A stretch of 64,000 nt of DNA from Streptococcus iniae (GTDB lineage Bacteria; Bacillota; Bacilli; Lactobacillales; Streptococcaceae). The stretch is from the NCBI RefSeq assembly GCF_030732225.1, contig NZ_CP132230.1, forward strand, positions 1,917,001 through 1,981,000, written 5' to 3'. The first letter of the stretch is position 1. Each line of letters starts with the position of its first letter. This document shows, piece after piece, positions 9,106 through 49,670 of this stretch. The notes below the pieces were generated by a model that saw only the letters and a program-made list of their open reading frames with translations, searched no databases and was not told the origin of the DNA. The translations under genes and the position numbers were made by a program.

Positions 9106-10401
9106 ATGCTAAAAATTTTATCTCAAAAGCACATTGAAAGACGTCAAAGAATTATTATTGCAGCCATCACAATTGCTCTAGCTGCCCAAATTTACATTCC
9201 AGTGATTACAGATGGTTTTATTTTGACCCTATCACTTTTTATTTTGCCAGTTTTTTTGTACTTCAATGATGATGTCAACCCCTTTCAAATTTGCCTTGGC
9301 ATCGCTATGGTTTCTCCTATTTTTAGAGGGCTCATTTTAATCAGTATTGGAGATGCCTCTCTGGCAAAAACCTTTGAATTTGTCTTTACGGATATGGTCT
9401 TTTACCTCTGCTATGGAACAGCTTATTATTTTCTTTATTGGAGACGCCCCTACGGTAACAAGGGAACCTTCTTTTTGACCATTATTATTTGCGACTACAT
9501 TTCAAACCTTGTTGAAATCAGTCTTTTACTTAACTTTAAACATTACAGTGTCACTGTTTTTCAAATTCTCTTTTTGGCAGCTCTTGCCAGAGCCTTTATC
9601 AGCTGTGCCTTATCTTATTGTTATAGTTACCTTAGTTTATTACTTTTGAAAGACTACCATGAACAACGCTATTATTATTTTATTTGGTCAACTTCTGCCG
9701 TAAAAAGTGAAGTTTATTTCATGCAAAAAAACATTCTTGAGATTGAAAACATTATGAAAAACGCCTATCTTCTCAATAAAGAATTGGAACACCATCACTT
9801 ACAACCCGAATTTCAACACCTTTCTTTAGACATTGCGCGCGACGTCCATGAAATCAAAAAAGACTACCAAAATGTCATCAAAGGCCTAGGCACTTATTTT
9901 AGTGTTGAAAATGAATCGAGCATGCTTTTAAAAGACATTTTTAGAATTGCATTATCCTACGTTCGAAGTTTGATTAAAGCCCATCAGCAAGATATTATTA
10001 TCACCGAAAATATCCAAAGCACGCTAACCGTCTCAAATTACTATTTTTTATTGACCGTTATTTCTAACATTGTTTTAAATGCTGTTGAAGCTATCGGCAA
10101 TCAAAAAAAGGGCACCATCACAGTTGTCACACAAGAATGCGATGGTAGCCTTAAAATCATTATCAGTGATAATGGCCCAGGGATTTCAGATAAGATAAAA
10201 GAGCACATTTTCAAACCTGGTTTTTCCACTAAATTTGATGCTAACGGGGATATTTATAGAGGGATTGGTTTGTCAAATGTCAAAGTGATTGTCCAAGAAC
10301 AATTCCACGGTGATATTACTTGCTCAGATAATACTCCTAAAGGAGCCGTTTTTACAATCAGTCTTAACAAACAGTTACTAATGACAGAGGTAATGAAATG
10401 A
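9106..10401 (+). CDS. GlnK/YcbA-like sensor histidine kinase
   Basis: Membrane sensor kinase of 431 residues. Residues about 15-185 form five or six membrane helices with little extracellular sequence. The dimerisation/phosphoacceptor segment is RDVHEIKKDYQNVIKG with His248. The ATPase domain has an N-box (NIVLNAVEAIG), G1 (DNGPGIS) and G2 (RGIGLSNVK). It overlaps the next gene by four bases (ATGA), so kinase and regulator are translationally coupled. The partner has a YcbB/GlnL-type output domain, which in Bacillus responds to glutamine. The ligand here is unknown, but divergence from arcB suggests control of the arc-type genes. Confidence 0.85.
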   Translation: MLKILSQKHIERRQRIIIAAITIALAAQIYIPVITDGFILTLSLFILPVFLYFNDDVNPFQICLGIAMVSPIFRGLILISIGDASLAKTFEFVFTDMVFYLCYGTAYYFLYWRRPYGNKGTFFLTIIICDYISNLVEISLLLNFKHYSVTVFQILFLAALARAFISCALSYCYSYLSLLLLKDYHEQRYYYFIWSTSAVKSEVYFMQKNILEIENIMKNAYLLNKELEHHHLQPEFQHLSLDIARDVHEIKKDYQNVIKGLGTYFSVENESSMLLKDIFRIALSYVRSLIKAHQQDIIITENIQSTLTVSNYYFLLTVISNIVLNAVEAIGNQKKGTITVVTQECDGSLKIIISDNGPGISDKIKEHIFKPGFSTKFDANGDIYRGIGLSNVKVIVQEQFHGDITCSDNTPKGAVFTISLNKQLLMTEVMK

Positions 10402-11246
10402 AATTTTACATCATTGATGATAACCCTTCAATGACTATGGTTTTACAAGATATTATTGAAGAGGACTTTAACCATACCGTAACAAAAACATGCAACGACT
10501 CATTAGTTGCTTATAAGGATCTTTTAGTTGTTGATGTTGATATTGTTTTAATTGACTTATTAATGCCAAACTTGGATGGCGTTTCCTTGGTTGAAAAAAT
10601 CCATAAACAGCGCCCTAAACTGAAATTTATTATGATTTCTCAAGTTAATGACACCACACTCAGGCAAAATGCATACAATGCTGGCATTGAATTTTTCATT
10701 AGCAAACCCATTAACATTGTTGAAGTCAGGTCAGTCGTCCAAAAAGTGACCGAGTCCATTGAAATGGAAGCTAAACTACACTTAATCCAAGAGTTACTTG
10801 GCCCTCAACTAGCCCAGCAAACTCAAGAAGATATCCACACGCGTCAATTGGAAAAAATCCGCTTAATCCTCAGTTACTTGGGCATTACAGCCGATGCCGG
10901 CTATGCTGACATTTTGAGCATTTGCAAGGTGATGCTAAGCCACAATCTGCTCTTTGAACAACTTGATTTCACCAAATACCTCTCACTTGATGCTCACGCC
11001 CAAAAAATCATGCTACAAAGGGTCAGAAGAGCTGTCAAGAAAGCTCTGATTAATACGGCGCATTTGTGCATTGATGACTTTGAAAATGATATCACCCTCC
11101 AATACGCCAAATCCCTCTTTGGTTATCAAAACATCCACTTAGAAATACAAGTTATTCAAGAAAATCGTTTCCAAGGTGGCAAAATTTCCTTACGGCAATT
11201 TTTTGATGAGCTCTTAGTTCAAAGCCACAATGCCTTATATACCTAA
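10398..11246 (+). CDS. GlnL/YcbB-like response regulator
   Basis: It has an N-terminal receiver domain (residues 1-120) with the acidic pair IDD, phospho-acceptor Asp53 in LIDLLMPNLDG and the conserved Lys in FISKPIN. A linker follows, then a C-terminal YcbB-type output domain (about 150-280) rather than a standard winged helix. The same architecture is found in B. subtilis GlnL. It is the last gene of the kinase-regulator unit and ends at a convergent terminator with ksgA. Likely targets are its own promoter and the divergent arcB unit, where three 10-bp repeats lie. That regulatory link is inference from position. Confidence 0.82.
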   Translation: MKFYIIDDNPSMTMVLQDIIEEDFNHTVTKTCNDSLVAYKDLLVVDVDIVLIDLLMPNLDGVSLVEKIHKQRPKLKFIMISQVNDTTLRQNAYNAGIEFFISKPINIVEVRSVVQKVTESIEMEAKLHLIQELLGPQLAQQTQEDIHTRQLEKIRLILSYLGITADAGYADILSICKVMLSHNLLFEQLDFTKYLSLDAHAQKIMLQRVRRAVKKALINTAHLCIDDFENDITLQYAKSLFGYQNIHLEIQVIQENRFQGGKISLRQFFDELLVQSHNALYT

Positions 11247-34748: not shown

Positions 34749-35138
34749 TTAGCTCTTTTTCTTTTTAGCCAGTTTTTGATTGATAAGGCGACTGCTGTGA
34801 TAATTTAACAGAAAAATCATAAGCCAAACAAGCAAATAAATCACAATGAAATTAAGGAAAAATCCTAAAAAATGCTCCATTTTAAGCCAATTATTATAAT
34901 AATTCATGCCAAAAACGATAATGCTTATCCCTACAAAATGAAGACTTGTTTTTATCATAAAGGACAACTTTTCCAAATGATAAATCATAGAAACAACTCC
35001 CATAAAGCCACTGAAAATCAAGCAAGAAACGATATTTGAAATGGTCTGCGTTTTGACATCACTCGCTAATAAACTTAGCATATAGATAATGCCTCCAACA
35101 CCAATTCCATAGATATAGGCATTGATTATTTTTTTCAT
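34749..35138 (-). CDS. DUF3021 membrane protein, probable inhibitor partner of the LytTR regulator
   Basis: A 129-residue protein with four predicted helices (INAYIYGIGVGGIIYMLSLL, IVSCLIFSGFMGVVSMIYHL, SLHFVGISIIVFGMNYY, FFLNFIVIYLLVWLMIFLL) and a basic tail (KLAKKKKS). This fits the DUF3021 family. Such proteins are encoded next to stand-alone LytTR regulators in LytTR regulatory systems such as S. mutans BrsRM, where the membrane protein restrains the regulator. It follows the regulator by 12 bases. The pairing is visible; the inhibitory role is inferred from known systems. Confidence 0.8.
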   Translation of the reverse strand: MKKIINAYIYGIGVGGIIYMLSLLASDVKTQTISNIVSCLIFSGFMGVVSMIYHLEKLSFMIKTSLHFVGISIIVFGMNYYNNWLKMEHFLGFFLNFIVIYLLVWLMIFLLNYHSSRLINQKLAKKKKS

Positions 35139-35150
35139 ACGGATTCCTCA

Positions 35151-35600
35151 CTAAAGTCCTAATTGACGTTCTAGATTTTTTAAATAGCATCTGCTGATAA
35201 TAATTTTTGTTTTATTTGTTAGTATGGCTAACATATTCCCAGAAAAAGAAGCCTCCATCCTAAGCAAATGGTCACTATTAATAATACTTTGCTTCGAAAC
35301 CTGAACAAAGGTTTTTGTTGGTAACTTCTCTTTGATTTTATACAGTCTTTCTCGATTGTGAAATTTTCCTTGAGTCGTCATAATACAAAGATAATCATTA
35401 TCAACTTCAACAGCAATAATATCTGTGTATTTTAGCAAGTGGATATTATCATCTTGTTTAATGGCAAGTAAGTCTGATTTCATCTCTTGGAAACCTTCTA
35501 AATATGTAATTAAATTTATAACCTCTTTATCATAGTTATTTTTTGAAATAACTATTTGCATTTCTGTATGTGATGCGTTTTCTTTAAAAAACCACTTCAT
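35151..35600 (-). CDS. Stand-alone LytTR-family transcriptional regulator
   Basis: A 149-residue protein with no receiver domain. Residues about 55-149 form a LytTR DNA-binding domain (IHLLKYTDIIAVEVDNDYLCIMTTQGKFHNRERL, FVQVSKQSIINSDHLLRMEASFSGN, IISRCYLKNLERQLGL). It resembles regulators paired with DUF3021 membrane proteins. Directly upstream lies a pair of 10-bp direct repeats 21 bases apart. A similar pair stands before the adjacent ABC transporter operon, so autoregulation and control of that transporter are likely. Confidence 0.87.
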   Translation of the reverse strand: MKWFFKENASHTEMQIVISKNNYDKEVINLITYLEGFQEMKSDLLAIKQDDNIHLLKYTDIIAVEVDNDYLCIMTTQGKFHNRERLYKIKEKLPTKTFVQVSKQSIINSDHLLRMEASFSGNMLAILTNKTKIIISRCYLKNLERQLGL

Positions 35601-42334: not shown

Positions 42335-42414
42335 CAATTTTAGTATTTTTATTCTTATTTTTTAGTAAAAAGGCTTTATCTATGTATATTTATCAAAATA
42401 ACAGAACAAAAAAA

Positions 42415-42436
42415 GACTCGGATAAAAATCCGAGTC
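42415..42436 (-). terminator. Terminator of fasX
   Basis: Perfect 9-bp stem with a 4-base loop, followed on the minus strand by seven T at 42408-42414. It also insulates argG. Confidence 0.88.
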
Positions 42437-42536
42437 CTTGACTGATTCATCACCAGTCTATGTGATATCCAAACAAAGACAACTGAAATATGCGTCTTAT
42501 TAGTAATCGTCACATCAAAAATACTATTTGTTTATG

Positions 42537-42552
42537 GAGAGAGAGAGAGAGA
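42537..42552. repeat. (GA)8 dinucleotide repeat inside fasX
   Basis: Eight uninterrupted GA units on the plus strand, read as (UC)8 in the RNA. Such tracts can change length by slippage. Confidence 0.9.
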
Positions 42553-42627
42553 AAACAATATTTTGATTGAATTGGGGATTGACGACTTACTAACTGACCG
42601 CTCATTAAGTCTTTATTTATATTAGTA

Positions 42628-42695
42628 ATTATACATGAAGAATCTGCTTGTGCTTCTTTTTTTCCTGAAATGTTGATATTTTATCCTAAAATGTT
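42628..42695 (-). promoter_or_regulatory. fasX promoter with FasA-type direct repeats
   Basis: On the minus strand AACATTTTAGGA (42684-42695) and AACATTTCAGGA (42663-42674) lie exactly 21 bases apart, the LytTR-regulator spacing. A TATAAT -10 follows at 42628-42633 without a good -35. This suits direct activation of fasX by phosphorylated FasA. Confidence 0.75.
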
Positions 42696-42709: not shown

Positions 42710-43447
42710 TTAATGCAATTCTTCCCATTTCTCAATCAAATGCTTTATTTTAAGACGAGAAACTGGACAGGAATCGCCATTTTCAAAATAAACCAATTGC
42801 TCATATTTATCAATACGAACCACATTGGCTAAATTAATCAAGTAGGAGCGATGGCACATAAAAAGCTTAGGTGCTGCTTCTTGAATTTCCGACAGGTTGC
42901 CATAAAATTCCAACCTTTCTGTTTGTGTCCATAAACACACTTTATGAGGTGTGGTTGAGGTTGCAAAATATAAAATATCTTTAAAAGGCAGACGTAGTTT
43001 TGTCTGAGCTGTCTCAAAAATAAAGAATTCTTCAGGTTCATGACTCTCCATCATTTTGCTGGTGTACTGAATACATTCTTCGATTTGTTCCTTAAACTGT
43101 TGTTTATCAACCGCCTTGTCAATAAAATCAAGGGCAGAAACTTTATACTTAAACGAAATCGGAGCAAATTCTGAATGTGTGGTAACAAATACAATGACTG
43201 CATTAGCATCTCTTTGCCTAATTTTTGTGGCTAACTCCAAGCCTTTTTTTTGCTCGTTCTTGATTTCAATGTCTAAAAAGAACAATTGGTGATTGCCCTT
43301 TTCCAAAATCGCATCATACAATTTATCTGGATTGGAAAAAATTTCCAATTGATTACAGTTAATACCTGTCTCTGCCAATATTTCTTCAATGGTGGACTCT
43401 ATTCGCGTTTGCTGGATAAAATTGTCTTCAAGGATAAATATATTCAT
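42710..43447 (-). CDS. fasA: FasA response regulator (LytTR output)
   Basis: A 245-residue AgrA/ComE-type response regulator. The receiver domain (1-125) has the acidic residues LEDN, the phospho-acceptor Asp in LFFLDIEIKN and the Lys in FIDKAVDK. A C-terminal LytTR domain follows (FETAQTKLRLPFKDILYFATS, FMCHRSYLINLANVVRIDK, CPVSRLKIKHLIE). In S. pyogenes fasA lies directly before fasX and drives it. Here matching direct repeats precede fasX. It follows the last kinase gene by three bases and is the only regulator for four kinase genes. Confidence 0.92.
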   Translation of the reverse strand: MNIFILEDNFIQQTRIESTIEEILAETGINCNQLEIFSNPDKLYDAILEKGNHQLFFLDIEIKNEQKKGLELATKIRQRDANAVIVFVTTHSEFAPISFKYKVSALDFIDKAVDKQQFKEQIEECIQYTSKMMESHEPEEFFIFETAQTKLRLPFKDILYFATSTTPHKVCLWTQTERLEFYGNLSEIQEAAPKLFMCHRSYLINLANVVRIDKYEQLVYFENGDSCPVSRLKIKHLIEKWEELH

Positions 43448-43450
43448 CGT

Positions 43451-44758
43451 TTATCTCATTTCTAATATTTGTCTTAGCCGATAATGATTGCTTTTACTTG
43501 AAAATATCGTCTCAGGATAGTCTTCTAAAACGGTAAAAAAGCGTTTAAAACTCTTCTGATAATGGCCTGTCGCATCAGGATGATGTTCATTAAAGAGCGT
43601 AGCCATGTCAATTTGCTTTAACTTGGTGCTGTTTTCAATAATAAAAAATTGCTTATTATCTTGGTAAAAATAGGCAATGGAAATAAAGGGCCTATTGCTA
43701 CCTTTGGCTGTATCAATAGCATTATCTAATAAAATCGATAAAACAACAACTAAATCGAGTAATTTTAGAGGCAAATTATCAATTTCATCTGGAATTTCAA
43801 TATGTAAGGTAATGCCATGATTCTGAGCTTCCAATAATTTTGATTGCAAGAGACTTCGAATAACAGCTTCTTTAATATTCCCAAGAGCACCAAAACCAAC
43901 TTCAGGACTAAACATGGCATAGGCTGATTCTTTTACAACAGCGTTATAAACTTCTTTAATCTCTTTACGATTCCCACTGTCAATACTGTCTTTTAAACTA
44001 ATCAGAATATTTTCCGAATCATGCTTAATGGTTCTAATATCTCGATACAACTGTTCAATATAATGATTGTAATTAACCAAGTTTTCAACGCGTTCTCCTT
44101 GAGCAAGAGCAAGTTTTCGTTCCAGGTCATCTTTTGTAAAGCGGTCCAGGCGAATAATAAACCAGATCATCATCAGTAAATAGATTAAAATTAACTTTGG
44201 TCGAATGCTCTGGTAAAGGGCAATTTCTGAAATGAAGGATAAATTAAGCAAATAAACGGAGAAATAATAAGAAAACATGATAGCATTCATGAGTGCCACC
44301 CAACGCCTCATCTTGTCAACTGTAATAAATTTCAACAGTGCAATGTCAACACTAAAAATATAACTCAAGAAAAAGAAAATAGGAAGAACTAACAAATAAG
44401 ACAGTAGTAAAAGTCTAATATCTAAATAAACTTGTGTTGAACTATAGCCCAAACAAACAGGGATAAAAAACATGATAATGGAGCGGTAAAGCGATTCAAC
44501 CATCATCATTGAAAAAAGGGCGTAAAAAATCGTTTCAGTTGCTTTTCTGTGTCTAAGGAATACAAAGCCCATTGTGATAAAAAAGACTTGATTCATTAAC
44601 ATATTGTGCTCAGATAAAAAATTAAGGCCTACAAATAAGCTACCTAGTAAAAAACGTTGGTAGAATCTGAGTTGAAGGCCAGAAATTTTCGAAAAGAAGA
44701 GCCAAATATCACAAAAAACAACCGTGTAAAATAAGGTGAAATAGTAAAAATAAGGCAT
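43451..44758 (-). CDS. fasC: Fas sensor kinase, FasC position: His present, ATP-binding domain degenerate
   Basis: An HPK10-family membrane protein of 435 residues with about six N-terminal helices (1-205), then a cytoplasmic coiled segment. The acceptor motif is intact: IRTIKHDSENIL, His246. The ATPase domain keeps an N-box (LLDNAIDTA, Asn346), but the G2 box expected near 400 is absent (PDATGHYQKSF instead of GxGLxN). It probably cannot phosphorylate efficiently by itself. It lies between its neighbour kinase and fasA with 1-3 base spacing, so it is one operon. The symbol follows the S. pyogenes gene order fasB-fasC-fasA-fasX. Confidence 0.83.
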   Translation of the reverse strand: MPYFYYFTLFYTVVFCDIWLFFSKISGLQLRFYQRFLLGSLFVGLNFLSEHNMLMNQVFFITMGFVFLRHRKATETIFYALFSMMMVESLYRSIIMFFIPVCLGYSSTQVYLDIRLLLLSYLLVLPIFFFLSYIFSVDIALLKFITVDKMRRWVALMNAIMFSYYFSVYLLNLSFISEIALYQSIRPKLILIYLLMMIWFIIRLDRFTKDDLERKLALAQGERVENLVNYNHYIEQLYRDIRTIKHDSENILISLKDSIDSGNRKEIKEVYNAVVKESAYAMFSPEVGFGALGNIKEAVIRSLLQSKLLEAQNHGITLHIEIPDEIDNLPLKLLDLVVVLSILLDNAIDTAKGSNRPFISIAYFYQDNKQFFIIENSTKLKQIDMATLFNEHHPDATGHYQKSFKRFFTVLEDYPETIFSSKSNHYRLRQILEMR

Positions 44759-46105
44759 CTAACTCTTTCCTTTCGCCAGTATGGTAAGCATCTGGCTAAA
44801 TTCATAATCTTGGCTTTTGGTTTGCAAGGACAAGTGCGGGTGTTTGCCTAAAATCGTTTGCACATTTGATAAGCCAATGCCTCGTTTATCTCCTTTGGTT
44901 GAATAGCCTTCTTTAAACAAGCGTGAAATCGAAATGGACGCTTCCTTGGTACTATTAGCAATATGTAACCTTTGCTCATTACCATTGAGGAAGTAGGCAA
45001 TGGTCATACGAGGCTTTTCCGACTTTAAGGCCGCTTCAATTGCATTATCAAGAAAAACTGACAAAATCAGCAAGAGGTCTAGTTCTGGTATAGGCACCTC
45101 AATAATCTGATCTGGAACTTCAATAAGGGTTTCAATGCCTTTTTTTTCAGCCTCAACAATCTTAGCTGACAGTAAACTCTTCACTGAAGAAATTTTAATG
45201 GGCGCTAGCTTTGAAATATTATAATGCTTATCATCCCAAAACTCACTTGATTGATTGAGAATATGATAATACGTTTCTTGAATTTTTTCTGTGGTCTCAT
45301 TATCTATTGCAGCCTCCAAAGTTTGAAGACGCCTGGAATAGTCTTCTTGAAAGATTTTCATTTCACGGTACAACTGTTCCAAGTGTTTCCCATAACTTTC
45401 AAGATTTTCAATATAATCTTCCTGTTCTTTTTTGATTTCAAGTTCCAAGAAATGTTTGGACTTATGATTAAAATAAGACAGCAAAAAAAGAAATAAAAAA
45501 GTGAAAATAAAGAAAAGAACCTGATAAGCTAGATCATTATTTTGGAAAGACTGGTAATGTAAAAAGGGATCATCAAAACCTAGAATCAAGAAAATATCAA
45601 CATAGTAAGCCAAAATAAAAATCAAAAAGATTTTATAAAAATTCTTAGCTCTTATTGTTCCACTTGTGATAAAGATGAGCCGATAATCTTTTCCGATAAA
45701 ATAATTCACTAAAGCAAAACAGGGGTAAATTAAAACAAATGCCAAGATGTTCAAGAGTAAGGCTTGCATTTCGAATTCCTTAACAATAACAAGTGACGGA
45801 AACAAGATGATCAATAAAAATCGGGAAAACAAGTCAATGAAAACACTTGGAAAGAAAGCTAAAAATAAGGTTTGAAGATAGGGTAACTGCTTACTCTTAA
45901 GCTTCAAAATACTAAAAAATAAAACAGGGTCTATCAGGAGAGGGGTTAAAAAATCAACTTGTGAAAAAAATAAGGCTGTTGAAATAATAAACAACTTTTC
46001 CCACAGAACAAGTCTAATATCAGATAAAAAGGTAAAAATTTTTATTTCTGTAATATAGTAAATAATCATCGACAGAAAAAAACACATAATATAAATACCA
46101 ATCAT
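44759..46105 (-). CDS. fasB: Fas sensor kinase, FasB position: no acceptor His, ATP-binding domain intact
   Basis: An HPK10-family protein of 448 residues with about six helices (1-215). At the acceptor position the usual FRHDY is replaced by FQEDY (Glu254), so there is no histidine to phosphorylate. The ATPase domain is complete: N-box FLDNAIEAA (Asn354), and KGDKRGIGLSNV with the G2 box at 409-414. It can plausibly act only as the catalytic partner of a His-bearing kinase. It is first in the transcript with fasC and fasA, and a terminator precedes it. Confidence 0.83.
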   Translation of the reverse strand: MIGIYIMCFFLSMIIYYITEIKIFTFLSDIRLVLWEKLFIISTALFFSQVDFLTPLLIDPVLFFSILKLKSKQLPYLQTLFLAFFPSVFIDLFSRFLLIILFPSLVIVKEFEMQALLLNILAFVLIYPCFALVNYFIGKDYRLIFITSGTIRAKNFYKIFLIFILAYYVDIFLILGFDDPFLHYQSFQNNDLAYQVLFFIFTFLFLFLLSYFNHKSKHFLELEIKKEQEDYIENLESYGKHLEQLYREMKIFQEDYSRRLQTLEAAIDNETTEKIQETYYHILNQSSEFWDDKHYNISKLAPIKISSVKSLLSAKIVEAEKKGIETLIEVPDQIIEVPIPELDLLLILSVFLDNAIEAALKSEKPRMTIAYFLNGNEQRLHIANSTKEASISISRLFKEGYSTKGDKRGIGLSNVQTILGKHPHLSLQTKSQDYEFSQMLTILAKGKS

Positions 46106-46194
46106 AGCTCTCCTTTCTAACTCAGCTTTTCCATTTTAACATATTTGTAAACAAGAAATGACATCTTTTTATAACATTTTTTTAACCTTAATGT

Positions 46195-46222
46195 AAAAAG
46201 CAGTTACGATTTAAGCAACTGC
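46195..46222 (-). terminator. Terminator between the two kinase pairs
   Basis: GCAGTTGCTTAAATCGTAACTGC (hairpin, minus strand) followed by five T. It lies 15 bases after the stop of the upstream kinase pair and before fasB. Confidence 0.68.
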
Positions 46223-46237
46223 TTTGCTATGAAACTA

Positions 46238-47554
46238 TCATGCCTTTGGAATTTTCAGGGTTTGTGTCACCATAAAATGACTACTTTTTGTTGATAATAG
46301 ACTACAAGGGTAAGCTTCTAGAATGGTTCTGACATTATCAAGGCCAAGTCCTCTTTCTGCTCCTTTGGTGGAATAACCTTTCTTAAAAATGGCGCCAATA
46401 TCAACTTTTTCTTCCTGAGTTGAATTTTCAATCACAAAAACAAGCATGTCATCGAGTTCAAAAAGAACAAAATTCATTTTCTTGTCATGGCTTTCTTTAG
46501 CAGCCTCTATCGCATTATCACAAAAGACAGAAATAATAATCATTAAATCTAACAGTTCCATTGCAACTCCTGTGACGTCATCAGGCACTTCAACAGTTAA
46601 ATGGAGGCCTTGTGTCTGTGCTTCAAATAATTTTGAGGCTAGAAAACTTTTTAAAATAGGAATTTTAACATTAATAAGACGTTCTAAATCGTATTTAGAA
46701 CTGTTAAATGGGTTTTCCTTCAAAGAAAAAAGCTGATTAAAGTCACTTTTAACTTGCTCCATATCTCCCGTATCTAAGACTTGCCCAAACCTTATTAAGG
46801 AATCTTTTGTCTGTTTTTTGAAATGGGTTATTTCGCCATATAAGGTTGCAATATAGGTATTGTAACTGCTTAGATTGCGGTAATGATTTTGCCGTTCCAT
46901 AGCAGCTTCACTCTCCACTGACGCAATAGCCTTGCTATTGAATTGGTATAAACTCCACAAAAACAAGAGGGCATAGACAAAGATAAATAAATACCTCATC
47001 CTTGTAACACTGTAAGGTAAATACGCAATATGAGATTCTAGGAAAGTGGAACCATTCACAAATATAAAAAATACAATCATAATCCCATTTGCATAGTATA
47101 AAGCTTTTGAACGACCATTGGCTAAACGGATGGCTTCGTAATCAATATGCAGGAGGTAATGAATAAAAAGATAACAAGGCATTGCTGAAAGATAACAAAT
47201 CGCCACTAACCACTGACTAGCATTGATGTGACTAATAGAGACACGTAAAATGGCCGACAAAACTGTATAGGCAACTATCCTAAACGATAATTCAACAATA
47301 ATTGTCGTGTAAAAACTATAAAAGACATGATAAGCTAAAGGTAAGCTCTTATCAATGACATAAGAAAAGACAAGCAAATAAAGAGGGTCTATAACAAGGG
47401 CGTAAGTGTCTAAAATATTACTAATTGAAGAACTTAATAAAATAAAGAGAACCATTTGCCACCACTTGCCTGTTTTTCCTCTAATAAAGAAAAAAATAGC
47501 CAAATGAGTTGTAAAGATGATGATATAAAAAAGTATTCTTAACGCAACTGACAA
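46238..47554 (-). CDS. Additional Fas-type sensor kinase: no acceptor His, ATP-binding domain intact
   Basis: An HPK10-family protein of 438 residues with six or so helices (1-205). The acceptor segment reads EITHFKKQTKDSL, which places Lys247 where FRHDY would carry His. A nearby His244 is three residues off register. The ATPase domain is complete: FCDNAIEAA (Asn347) and KGAERGLGLDNV (G2 at 402-407). Same catalytic-only type as the FasB-position protein, and similar to it in the KGYSTKG motif. It abuts the upstream kinase gene by one base. Confidence 0.82.
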   Translation of the reverse strand: MSVALRILFYIIIFTTHLAIFFFIRGKTGKWWQMVLFILLSSSISNILDTYALVIDPLYLLVFSYVIDKSLPLAYHVFYSFYTTIIVELSFRIVAYTVLSAILRVSISHINASQWLVAICYLSAMPCYLFIHYLLHIDYEAIRLANGRSKALYYANGIMIVFFIFVNGSTFLESHIAYLPYSVTRMRYLFIFVYALLFLWSLYQFNSKAIASVESEAAMERQNHYRNLSSYNTYIATLYGEITHFKKQTKDSLIRFGQVLDTGDMEQVKSDFNQLFSLKENPFNSSKYDLERLINVKIPILKSFLASKLFEAQTQGLHLTVEVPDDVTGVAMELLDLMIIISVFCDNAIEAAKESHDKKMNFVLFELDDMLVFVIENSTQEEKVDIGAIFKKGYSTKGAERGLGLDNVRTILEAYPCSLLSTKSSHFMVTQTLKIPKA

Positions 47555-47555
47555 G

Positions 47556-48866
47556 TTATTTCACCTCTAAAAATCTGCCTTCTTCTGCAGTAAACTTCAT
47601 GATTTGACTTAACTGATGATCCCTTAAAACAATTTTATAAGAGAATTTAGGGTTACGCTCAGCCAAAATAGACAAGGTCATGTCTGTAATATCAAGTTGT
47701 TCCCTCATTTCTCTGGTAAAAGCTTTGCGAAGGTTTTTAACCTGATTATCAATTCGAATCACCAGACGATCTTGCTCATTGACATAACAGGTAAAATCAA
47801 TTTCCGGTTCCTTAAACCTTTCTGAAATTAAAATGGCTAAATCACCCGTTACTGCAACAACAGTCATTAAATCCATTTCAGACAAAGAGGGTGTCCCTAG
47901 ACTTTGACAAATTCGGTAATTCAAATTTATCCCTTTTCCTTGAGCTTCGAGATGCTTCATCGCCAATAATATTCGAGCATTTTTATTTCGAATTTTTGAC
48001 AGTTGCTCAACTCTAAGTGAGACTGTGGAATCAACAACGCTATTTAACTTCAGCATAATTTCGTGATAGACTATCTTTACCGTCTCAAGGTTACCTGTCT
48101 CGATACTAGCTGATAAAGTCAGCAAAATGTTATCGTAGTCGTGCCTAAAAGAACGAATCTTTTGATAAAGTTTCTCTAAGTAAACATTATAGTGTTCTAA
48201 GAGTAAGATATGCTTTCTTTCTTCTTCTTGCATCATTTTTTTGATGTTTTTTTTGGTCACATCATTCATGTAAGAAATAAGGTAAAGTAACACCAGTAAA
48301 AAAACAAGAACAATACCTTTATGATACCATTCAGTCGTAACTGAAAATGACATTTTGCTCAGAATAAAGAGGTAATAACCTATGAATGACAATTCTGTCA
48401 TTACTAAAAAACGATTGGTCCATTTGGTTTGATAGCGGACAAATGAAAAATTACGAATCGAAAAGATCTTGACTAAAAACAAAAAAGTTGGCAAAACAAA
48501 GGCATAGGCTAGTAAAATGTTGACATCATTGGCGACAACCTTCGAAAAGGAACCATGTTTAAATAAAGGAATAATGAAAAACAAAATCAATTTGGACAGT
48601 AAATCTGTCATAATAATAGGGAATTGTGAGAAAAACACATGATGAGTCCACTTATCATTGCGATGGGTAAAGTAGTGGTATAAAAAGAAGAAAATGGGCT
48701 CTATCCAAACAATATAGTGATTAACAAATCCGACAATAAACATCTGAAAAACAAGGAATAGAAAGACTTTACCCCAAGGAATTTTGATATGACGATCTAT
48801 AAAGTAAATCACTAAATTATCACTAAATCTAAGCAAAAAAATGCTAACTAATACTAGTGTTTCCAT
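47556..48866 (-). CDS. Additional Fas-type sensor kinase: His present, ATP-binding domain degenerate
   Basis: An HPK10-family protein of 436 residues with about six helices. The acceptor motif is canonical (KIRSFRHDYDNILLTL, His242 from the chosen start). The ATPase domain has lost its key residues: the N-box reads VTGDLAIL, with Leu in place of the Mg-binding Asn, and there is no glycine-rich G2 box (TREMREQLDITD at that place). I start at the ATG after GGAGG (METLVLV). The longer frame adds 15 residues overlapping the promoter region. It has its own promoter and forms a two-gene unit with the next kinase. Confidence 0.82.
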   Translation of the reverse strand: METLVLVSIFLLRFSDNLVIYFIDRHIKIPWGKVFLFLVFQMFIVGFVNHYIVWIEPIFFFLYHYFTHRNDKWTHHVFFSQFPIIMTDLLSKLILFFIIPLFKHGSFSKVVANDVNILLAYAFVLPTFLFLVKIFSIRNFSFVRYQTKWTNRFLVMTELSFIGYYLFILSKMSFSVTTEWYHKGIVLVFLLVLLYLISYMNDVTKKNIKKMMQEEERKHILLLEHYNVYLEKLYQKIRSFRHDYDNILLTLSASIETGNLETVKIVYHEIMLKLNSVVDSTVSLRVEQLSKIRNKNARILLAMKHLEAQGKGINLNYRICQSLGTPSLSEMDLMTVVAVTGDLAILISERFKEPEIDFTCYVNEQDRLVIRIDNQVKNLRKAFTREMREQLDITDMTLSILAERNPKFSYKIVLRDHQLSQIMKFTAEEGRFLEVK

Positions 48867-48906: not shown

Positions 48907-48935
48907 ATCATACTATAAGTCTAATGCTTAGGCAA
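48907..48935 (-). promoter_or_regulatory. Promoter of the extra kinase pair
   Basis: TTGCCT and TATGAT on the minus strand with a 17-base spacer, about 40 bases before the kinase start. No LytTR-type repeat was seen here. Confidence 0.65.
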
Positions 48936-48959: not shown

Positions 48960-49670
48960 ACCACCCGTCTAACGGGTGGTTTGAACAAGGGCTATAAGCC
49001 CAGAATACAAGCCAGCGTCTAAAGGCGCTGGCTTTCACTTTGTTCAAGCCTTATTGCTCTTGACTCGTCACTTGCCTCTCAAAGAGGCCTTTGTATTACT
49101 TGCCACTATCCCTAAAGGGATCTTCATATTCTTTTACACTTAATTTATCCACTGCTATATCATGTTTCTCTTGATCTTGTATGTATTTTTTTATTGTGGC
49201 TTCATTCAATCCAACTGTACTTACATAATAACCTTCAGCCCAAAAATGTCGATTACCAAACTTATATTTGAGATTAGCGTGTTTATCAAACATCATGAGT
49301 GCGCTTTTTCCTTTTAAATATCCCATAAAACTTGAAACACTAATTCTTTGGGGAATACTTACCAACATGTGGACATGGTCTGGCATCAAATGACCTTCAA
49401 TTATTTCTACACCTTTATAGCTACACAGTCTCTGAAAAATCTCACCGAGACTACTTCTGTATTGATTATAGATTATTTTTCCTCTATACTTAGGGGTGAA
49501 CACAATGTGATATTTACACATCCACTTTGTGTGTGATAAGCTATGTGCCTTCTGTGCCATATTTTGACTCCTTTCGCTTTACAATTGGCTTGAACACCTA
49601 TATTGTACCGCGTTAGGAGTCTTTTGGGTATAACCTTTGATGCACACCCGCATAGCGGGTGGTTTTTTGT
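48960..49670 (-). mobile_element. IS200/IS605-family insertion sequence
   Basis: The single transposase gene is flanked by similar hairpins: ACCACCCGTCTAACGGGTGGT at 48961-48981 (stem-loop) and CACCCGCATAGCGGGTGG at 49647-49664. A further hairpin lies near 49012-49034 (AGCCAGCG / CGCTGGCT). There are no terminal inverted repeats, as usual for this family. Exact ends are not resolved. Confidence 0.75.
49096..49560 (-). CDS. tnpA: IS200-type transposase TnpA (HUH/Y1)
   Basis: A 154-residue single-strand transposase. The HUH motif is in MPDHVHMLVS (near residue 63). The catalytic tyrosine is in the AEGYYVSTVGL region (near 112), followed by YIQDQEKHD. N-terminal HTKWMCKYHIVFTPKYR is characteristic. 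Length is normal and the frame unbroken, so it may be functional. Confidence 0.93.
   Translation of the reverse strand: MAQKAHSLSHTKWMCKYHIVFTPKYRGKIIYNQYRSSLGEIFQRLCSYKGVEIIEGHLMPDHVHMLVSIPQRISVSSFMGYLKGKSALMMFDKHANLKYKFGNRHFWAEGYYVSTVGLNEATIKKYIQDQEKHDIAVDKLSVKEYEDPFRDSGK

Follow-up and report, generated by a model that had tools for sequence, protein, structure and literature searches.

Introduction

AgrC, the HPK10-type receptor kinase of Staphylococcus aureus, forms dimers that phosphorylate in trans. Here, we describe four kinases of the same kind, K1 to K4, that are encoded next to the response regulator gene fasA in Streptococcus iniae; the window analysed is the stretch of 64,000 nucleotides at positions 1,917,001 to 1,981,000 of NZ_CP132230.1, a chromosome of 2,175,659 bp. 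With AgrC (6e52, 4bxi) and with complete streptococcal HPK10 kinases, K1 to K4 share a membrane sensor, a dimerization and histidine phosphotransfer (DHp) domain, a GHKL-type fold, and alignable positions of the acceptor histidine and of the N and G2 boxes. K1 to K4, "acceptor half" (with the histidine) and "catalytic half" (with the boxes of the ATP-binding domain) are names coined in this analysis.

The closest described system is FasBCAX of S. pyogenes (Baral et al. 2025, PMC12675982). According to the parts of that paper considered here, FasB and FasC interacted in a two-hybrid assay and neither interacted with itself; His246 of FasC was required; FasC1-286 and FasB216-448 sufficed, the kinase domain of FasC being dispensable; and the part of FasB comprising DHp and HATPase complemented. 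FasA was reported to be phosphorylated at Asp60. FasC was named a pseudokinase, FasB was proposed to be a phosphatase, and in vitro kinase assays were named in the discussion as future work. The S. iniae locus has orthologs of FasB (K3), FasC (K4), FasA and FasX in the same order, with the same heterodimer logic and the same acceptor His246. In the parts covered, the paper deals with one pair and mentions neither a second pair nor the loss of the acceptor site in FasB, whereas two pairs are present here.

The division of His and ATP functions between separate proteins that form one kinase is likewise found in CheA3/CheA4 of Rhodobacter sphaeroides, but according to the portion of that paper considered (PMC3591291) CheA is split there through the loss of whole domains, whereas the Fas halves are mostly full-length membrane proteins that have lost residues. 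Hik36/Hik43 of Synechocystis, likewise termed a split histidine kinase and likewise serving one regulator, is a CheA homolog split over two genes in a single pair, as described in the sections considered (PMC7656254). The split mechanism is thus already known for FasBC, and it is the multi-pair arrangement that is new. The first-pass annotation of this stretch had stated that neither split-function Fas kinases nor a doubled pair had been described; the former part is overtaken by PMC12675982, as seen in part, for one pair, and the latter stands for the open-licence literature searched, in which no description of extra Fas pairs was found.

Results and discussion

Four complementary half-kinases

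The alignment placed His242 of K1, Lys247 of K2, Glu254 of K3 and His246 of K4 in the acceptor column. K1 has Leu343 at the position of the N-box Asn and lacks the G2 box, and K4 retains Asn346 and also lacks G2, while K2 and K3 have the N box DNAIEAA, the G1 box and the G2 box RG(L/I)GL. None of the four proteins carries the acceptor His together with both the N and the G2 box. The alignment therefore agrees with the first-pass annotation, which had read two kinases as having the histidine without an intact ATP-binding domain and two as having N and G2 boxes with Glu254 or Lys247 at the acceptor position, with one of each type in each adjacent pair (K1-K2 and K3-K4). An independent register was given by alignment to solved AgrC, in which FRHDY of AgrC pairs with FRHDY of K1 and with FKKQT of K2.

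Homology to AgrC over the DHp and GHKL regions was found for K1 and K2 by alignment to the PDB AgrC structures, and for K1 and K4 by Foldseek. The NCBIfam AgrC model gave 56-115 bits on the kinases, all below its equivalog cut-off of 500 bits. The Pfam GHKL domain PF14501 matched K2, K3 and K4 (positions 2-59 of 102 in K4) and was not detected in K1 by the Pfam search. The single-chain AlphaFold models of K1 and K4 (mean predicted local distance difference test scores of 80.0 and 81.4; modelling input was limited to proteins of the window and of loci L008-L015) contain membrane helices, a helical hairpin resembling DHp and a C-terminal domain of alpha/beta type, and their best solved Foldseek matches were AgrC (6e95/6e52 for K1, 6e52 for K4).

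Conservation of the split

FasA was searched in 284 genomes of the genus, with a match at 1e-30 in 255; most of the matches among those listed had 48-60% identity and were taken as paralogs or distant relatives. Upstream stretches were read for 20 of the best matches, later for G061, G270 and others. Loci with FasA at least 72% identical were defined as pyogenic-type (n = 19: the window, eight loci L008-L015 and ten loci L046-L055), and each of the 19 has FasB-like and FasC-like genes, counting broken copies. The counted set comprised 31 pairs from 23 streptococcal genomes, which are related sequences and not independent events: 17 FasB/FasC pairs and 14 extra pairs, of which eight lie in pyogenic-type loci, four beside a distant FasA (G155, G049, G061, G270) and two not beside FasA (G035, G078). 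Omitted from the count were S. ictaluri, whose FasB is broken, G038, whose FasC is broken, the extra pairs of S. penaeicida, likewise broken, and the FasA-linked clusters of G181, G175, G182, G183 and G078; the FasC row of S. uberis, a 365-aa open reading frame (ORF) whose gene is broken near the start, was kept. Eleven control kinases, chosen as complete and two of them from irregular Fas clusters, served only to validate the alignment columns.

In the catalytic halves, the acceptor His was present in 0/31, and the N-box Asn, the G1 Asn and the GGL of G2 were each present in 31/31. Conversely, all 31 acceptor halves had the His and none had the GGL of G2, so that acceptor and ATP functions, judged by motifs, lie on separate co-encoded proteins in all 31 pairs. 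The remaining ATP-binding residues of the acceptor halves differed between types: the N-box Asn was kept in 9/17 FasC and 0/14 extra-pair proteins, and the G1 Asn in 17/17 and 1/14, respectively. At the lost acceptor site of FasB, ten different residues occurred over the 17 orthologs, which is expected of a site without its old function. A chance origin of the complementary pattern is unlikely, because the pattern recurs in every counted pair.

The first-pass annotation had set another conserved acceptor histidine as a test, and this gained no support: a shifted acceptor was rejected, since a His at -3 was found in only 2/14 K2-type and 1/17 FasB rows and nearby histidines were scattered.

For a base rate, 122 unique HPK10-like ORFs were collected, 89 from Fas-cluster loci and 33 others. 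As in AgrC, and unlike in K1 to K4, His, N and G2 lay on one chain in 29 of these 33, which were drawn from the loci of best matches and include many close copies. The four exceptions were both halves of the G078 split pair (L100), the catalytic half of the G035 split pair (L103), and L101 of G231, a 388-aa ORF with no G2 box.

Sequence constraint in the 14 extra pairs followed the retained motifs, with mean identities in the acceptor halves of 42% for DHp and 18% for the catalytic and ATP-binding (CA) domain, and in the catalytic halves of 31% and 49%, respectively. In G181, G175 and G182, acceptor halves of 296 aa have no CA domain at all, near the published working FasC1-286.

Pairs multiplied before one fasA

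Two pairs are present in the window and likewise in S. uberis, S. didelphis, G151 and G274. In S. bovimastitidis, four acceptor halves and as many catalytic halves lie upstream of a single fasA; each of the three extra pairs begins with its acceptor half, whereas FasB-FasC has the catalytic half first. In S. penaeicida, two extra pairs are left as remains. For the 12 remaining pyogenic-type loci, the roughly 9-10 kb read upstream of fasA showed FasB/FasC-type genes only. Consistent with the earlier statement that S. pyogenes has a single pair, G174 (inferred to be S. pyogenes) shows only FasB of 448 aa and FasC of 427 aa with His246 in the stretch read, matching the published numbering.

Some other arrangements were observed. 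FasA-linked clusters of four kinases occur at L059, L060 and L061, with a 296-aa kinase without a catalytic domain, one His-less kinase with catalytic boxes, and two without His and without full boxes. Split kinase pairs without a FasA gene in the stretch read were seen at L126:4908-7594 and L127:96-2770. Apparently broken Fas genes were noted in individual genomes, namely both FasC and fasA in S. uberis CAIM 1894 (L015/L130), both FasB and fasA in S. ictaluri (L013), FasC in G038 (L052), and extra-pair kinases in S. penaeicida (L011).

The phylogeny of pyogenic kinases separated the K1, K2, FasB and FasC types with support of 100/99 or 100/100, placing K3 in the FasB-type and K4 in the FasC-type group (each 100/100). 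In a quick tree of 113 rows, the catalytic halves fell on one branch (SH-aLRT, the Shimodaira-Hasegawa-like approximate likelihood ratio test, 90, not starred) and all Fas-type rows lay apart from other kinases (99). In a careful tree of 64 rows, the deep order was not settled and most control kinases fell among the Fas-type groups; nine more rows were omitted from this tree and from the approximately unbiased (AU) tests, eight of them closely related to another row and one with a long branch. The AU tests rejected none of three clades (one catalytic clade, p 0.449; one acceptor clade, p 0.157; Fas-type versus controls, p 0.09). Given these p values and the 64-row tree, we claim neither a single deep origin of all acceptor or all catalytic halves nor several.

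One regulator and the FasX output

The order FasB, FasC and fasA, with the two kinase genes directly upstream of the regulator gene, is common to the compared Fas loci, and the S. iniae locus has the further marks of a Fas system, namely a FasA ortholog followed by a FasX RNA with a FasA box. Among eight named-species loci, the nearest FasA was that of S. catagoni, with 80% identity.

LytTR matches were sought in 14 genomes. The genome of the window has three: FasA, a receiver and LytTR protein that would be LytR as read from its neighbouring genes, and a LytTR protein of 149 aa that lacks a receiver. Among these, FasA alone looks AgrA/ComE-type, and no FasA paralog was found in this genome at 1e-30. 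The counts are alike in S. bovimastitidis with its four pairs: three matches to LytTR and, at 1e-30, a single one to FasA. Since FasA is the sole regulator of this type found in the genome of the window, it is by elimination probably the target of all pairs, in line with the first-pass claim that both pairs feed a single FasA. Several relatives likewise have LytTR matches some 4-8 kb away from fasA, and in the window a LytTR-only protein (35151-35600) is followed by a small membrane protein (34749-35138).

The pattern ACATTTYAGGA-N10-ACATTTYAGGA stands behind fasA in all 17 loci read, a set without L013 and L015, and has a mismatch in one of them. At up to 2 mismatches, the box occurs once in the whole genome of the window and in 17 of 19 genomes searched; within the window, none was found before K1 or FasB. 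Of 13 loci scanned for FasX, nine (L046-L054) reached the Rfam gathering score, and L055-L058 did not. In S. bovimastitidis (G010), FasX scored 117.8 bits, and a second FasX-like RNA with its own perfect FasA box lies 0.9 kb from it (L164:1321-1503); at 63.6 bits (E 4.8e-9), this second RNA stays under the gathering score of 100.

A candidate phosphatase motif

The motif H[DE]xx[NT], described as a phosphatase motif in the part of PMC3591291 considered, was present in 31/31 acceptor halves, 0/31 catalytic halves and 10/11 controls, and [DE]xx[NT] without the His was kept in 3/31 catalytic halves. The motif may act in the same way in HPK10 kinases. If so, the FasA phosphatase is predicted to sit on the acceptor half, contrary to the proposal, in the parts of PMC12675982 covered, that it is FasB.

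Proposed mechanism and alternative explanations

We consider it very probable that K1-K2 and FasB-FasC are two split HPK10-type kinases, each an obligate heterodimer, that both feed FasA. The heterodimer put forward by the first-pass annotation is backed by the conservation of the split in 31/31 pairs and, for FasB/FasC, by the S. pyogenes genetics and two-hybrid results in the covered parts of PMC12675982. In this mechanism, the two membrane proteins of each pair would associate, the ATP domain of K2 or FasB would phosphorylate the His of K1 or FasC, and the acceptor half would hand the phosphate to FasA, which in its phosphorylated form would bind the FasA box and turn on FasX. The acceptor half, as sole carrier of H[DE]xx[NT], would double as the FasA phosphatase. 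K1-K2, whose chemistry we infer to be the same as that of FasB-FasC, would be a second input to FasA.

Several observations weigh against this explanation. The CA-like domain of FasC-type proteins is still conserved (56% identity versus 60% for DHp) and, together with the kept G1 Asn (17/17) and N-box Asn (9/17), suggests that this domain probably still does something. The input of K1-K2 to FasA was reached by elimination, and no FasA box was found at up to 2 mismatches in G155 and G061, where an extra-type pair lies beside FasA. The one-to-one rule is broken in G181, G175 and G182, which have two further kinases without His and without full catalytic boxes, and in G183 and G078, where a complete kinase stands beside FasA together with His-less catalytic kinases. 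His294 of FasB, in the linker behind DHp, is invariant in 17/17 orthologs.

This last residue would also suit an arrangement in which each half is its own homodimer and FasB and K2 have an unrecognised acceptor. The published candidate is His284, which was left open, and the H284A FasB could not be made; however, only 5 of 17 FasB orthologs have a His at position 284 and 13 of 17 have one at 241, H241A FasB works, and no homodimer of FasB or FasC was seen in the two-hybrid assay (PMC12675982, parts covered), which leaves such homodimers highly improbable. We give equally little credence to acceptor halves acting as Spo0B-like phosphotransferases that are fed by another phosphoprotein instead of by the adjacent catalytic half. 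K1 has a weak match to the Spo0B helical domain PF14689 (E 0.0026, 17.8 bits), but this is below the Pfam cut-off of 28.1, no PF14689 match was reported for K2-K4 at E values of up to 1, each acceptor half of the 31 pairs has a catalytic partner as its neighbour, and the complementation by FasB DHp and HATPase and the FasB-FasC interaction reported in the same covered parts of PMC12675982 point to the partner itself.

A better, though still distinctly unlikely, alternative is that FasB-FasC is a split kinase while K1-K2 is decaying or modulating, sequestering halves or antagonising the main pair without phosphorylating FasA. K1-type kinases evolve fast (24% identity in the sensor region, 18% in CA), and the extra pair is patchy: S. 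penaeicida has it in broken form, and it was not seen in S. catagoni, whose FasA is the nearest. Against decay, all 14 extra catalytic halves keep their catalytic boxes and all 14 extra acceptor halves their acceptor His, and in the stretches read of G155, G049, G061 and G270 no kinases other than extra-type pairs adjoin FasA.

Two split kinases feeding FasA would make a class out of one recently described odd pair: a residue-level split of membrane receptor kinases that is conserved in many streptococci, with Fas-type pairs multiplied up to four times before one regulator. Such a system allows direct tests of signal integration by paired receptors, of the location of the phosphatase and of insulation versus mixing of pairs. 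More speculatively, and with a rather low likelihood in our estimate, the rows of half-kinases could be a combinatorial array in which halves of different pairs mix, so that n pairs could form as many as n x n receptor types on one regulator, with AND-like gating by the sensor of each half and phosphatase activity confined to unpaired or inactive acceptor halves. If true, up to 16 receptor types would be expected in S. bovimastitidis, in which the FasX output looks doubled as well.

Layout of the S. iniae locus

Table 1. Features of the Fas locus, in positions of the window.
Feature	Positions	Strand	Remarks
K1, acceptor half, 436 aa	47556..48866	-	His242 codon 48141-48143; ORF, motif, alignment, AlphaFold
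K2, catalytic half, 438 aa, TTG start	46238..47554	-	Lys247 codon 46814-46816; N, G1, G2 present
Gap between pairs K1-K2 and K3-K4, 132 bp	46106..46237	-	hairpin and T run, then promoter-like stretch (by eye)
K3, FasB ortholog, catalytic half, 448 aa	44759..46105	-	Glu254 codon 45344-45346 at acceptor column
K4, FasC ortholog, acceptor half, 435 aa	43451..44758	-	His246 codon 44021-44023 in HDSEN; N-box Asn kept, no G2
FasA, response regulator, receiver and LytTR, Asp59	42710..43447	-	family profile matches
FasA box ACATTTTAGGA-N10-ACATTTCAGGA, upstream of fasX	42663..42694	-	pattern search
FasX small RNA	42412..42620	-	RF02384, 160.8 bits

The genes are closely packed along the minus strand, with gaps of 1 bp (K1-K2), 132 bp (K2-K3), 0 bp (K3-K4), 3 bp (K4-FasA) and 89 bp (FasA-FasX), and none of the four kinase ORFs has an internal stop. 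From the hairpin with T run and the promoter-like stretch in the 132-bp gap, K1-K2 may be transcribed separately from fasBCA; the hairpin and T run, seen by eye, are absent from the sites that a scan listed. An in-frame ATG lies upstream of the K1 start, at 48911. By eye, a transposase gene resembling IS200/IS605 TnpA (49096-49560) stands between a gltX-like gene and K1. Elsewhere in the window, the stretch 9106-11246 holds a further sensor kinase with a PF14501 match and, adjacent to it, a protein that looks, by eye, like a response regulator.

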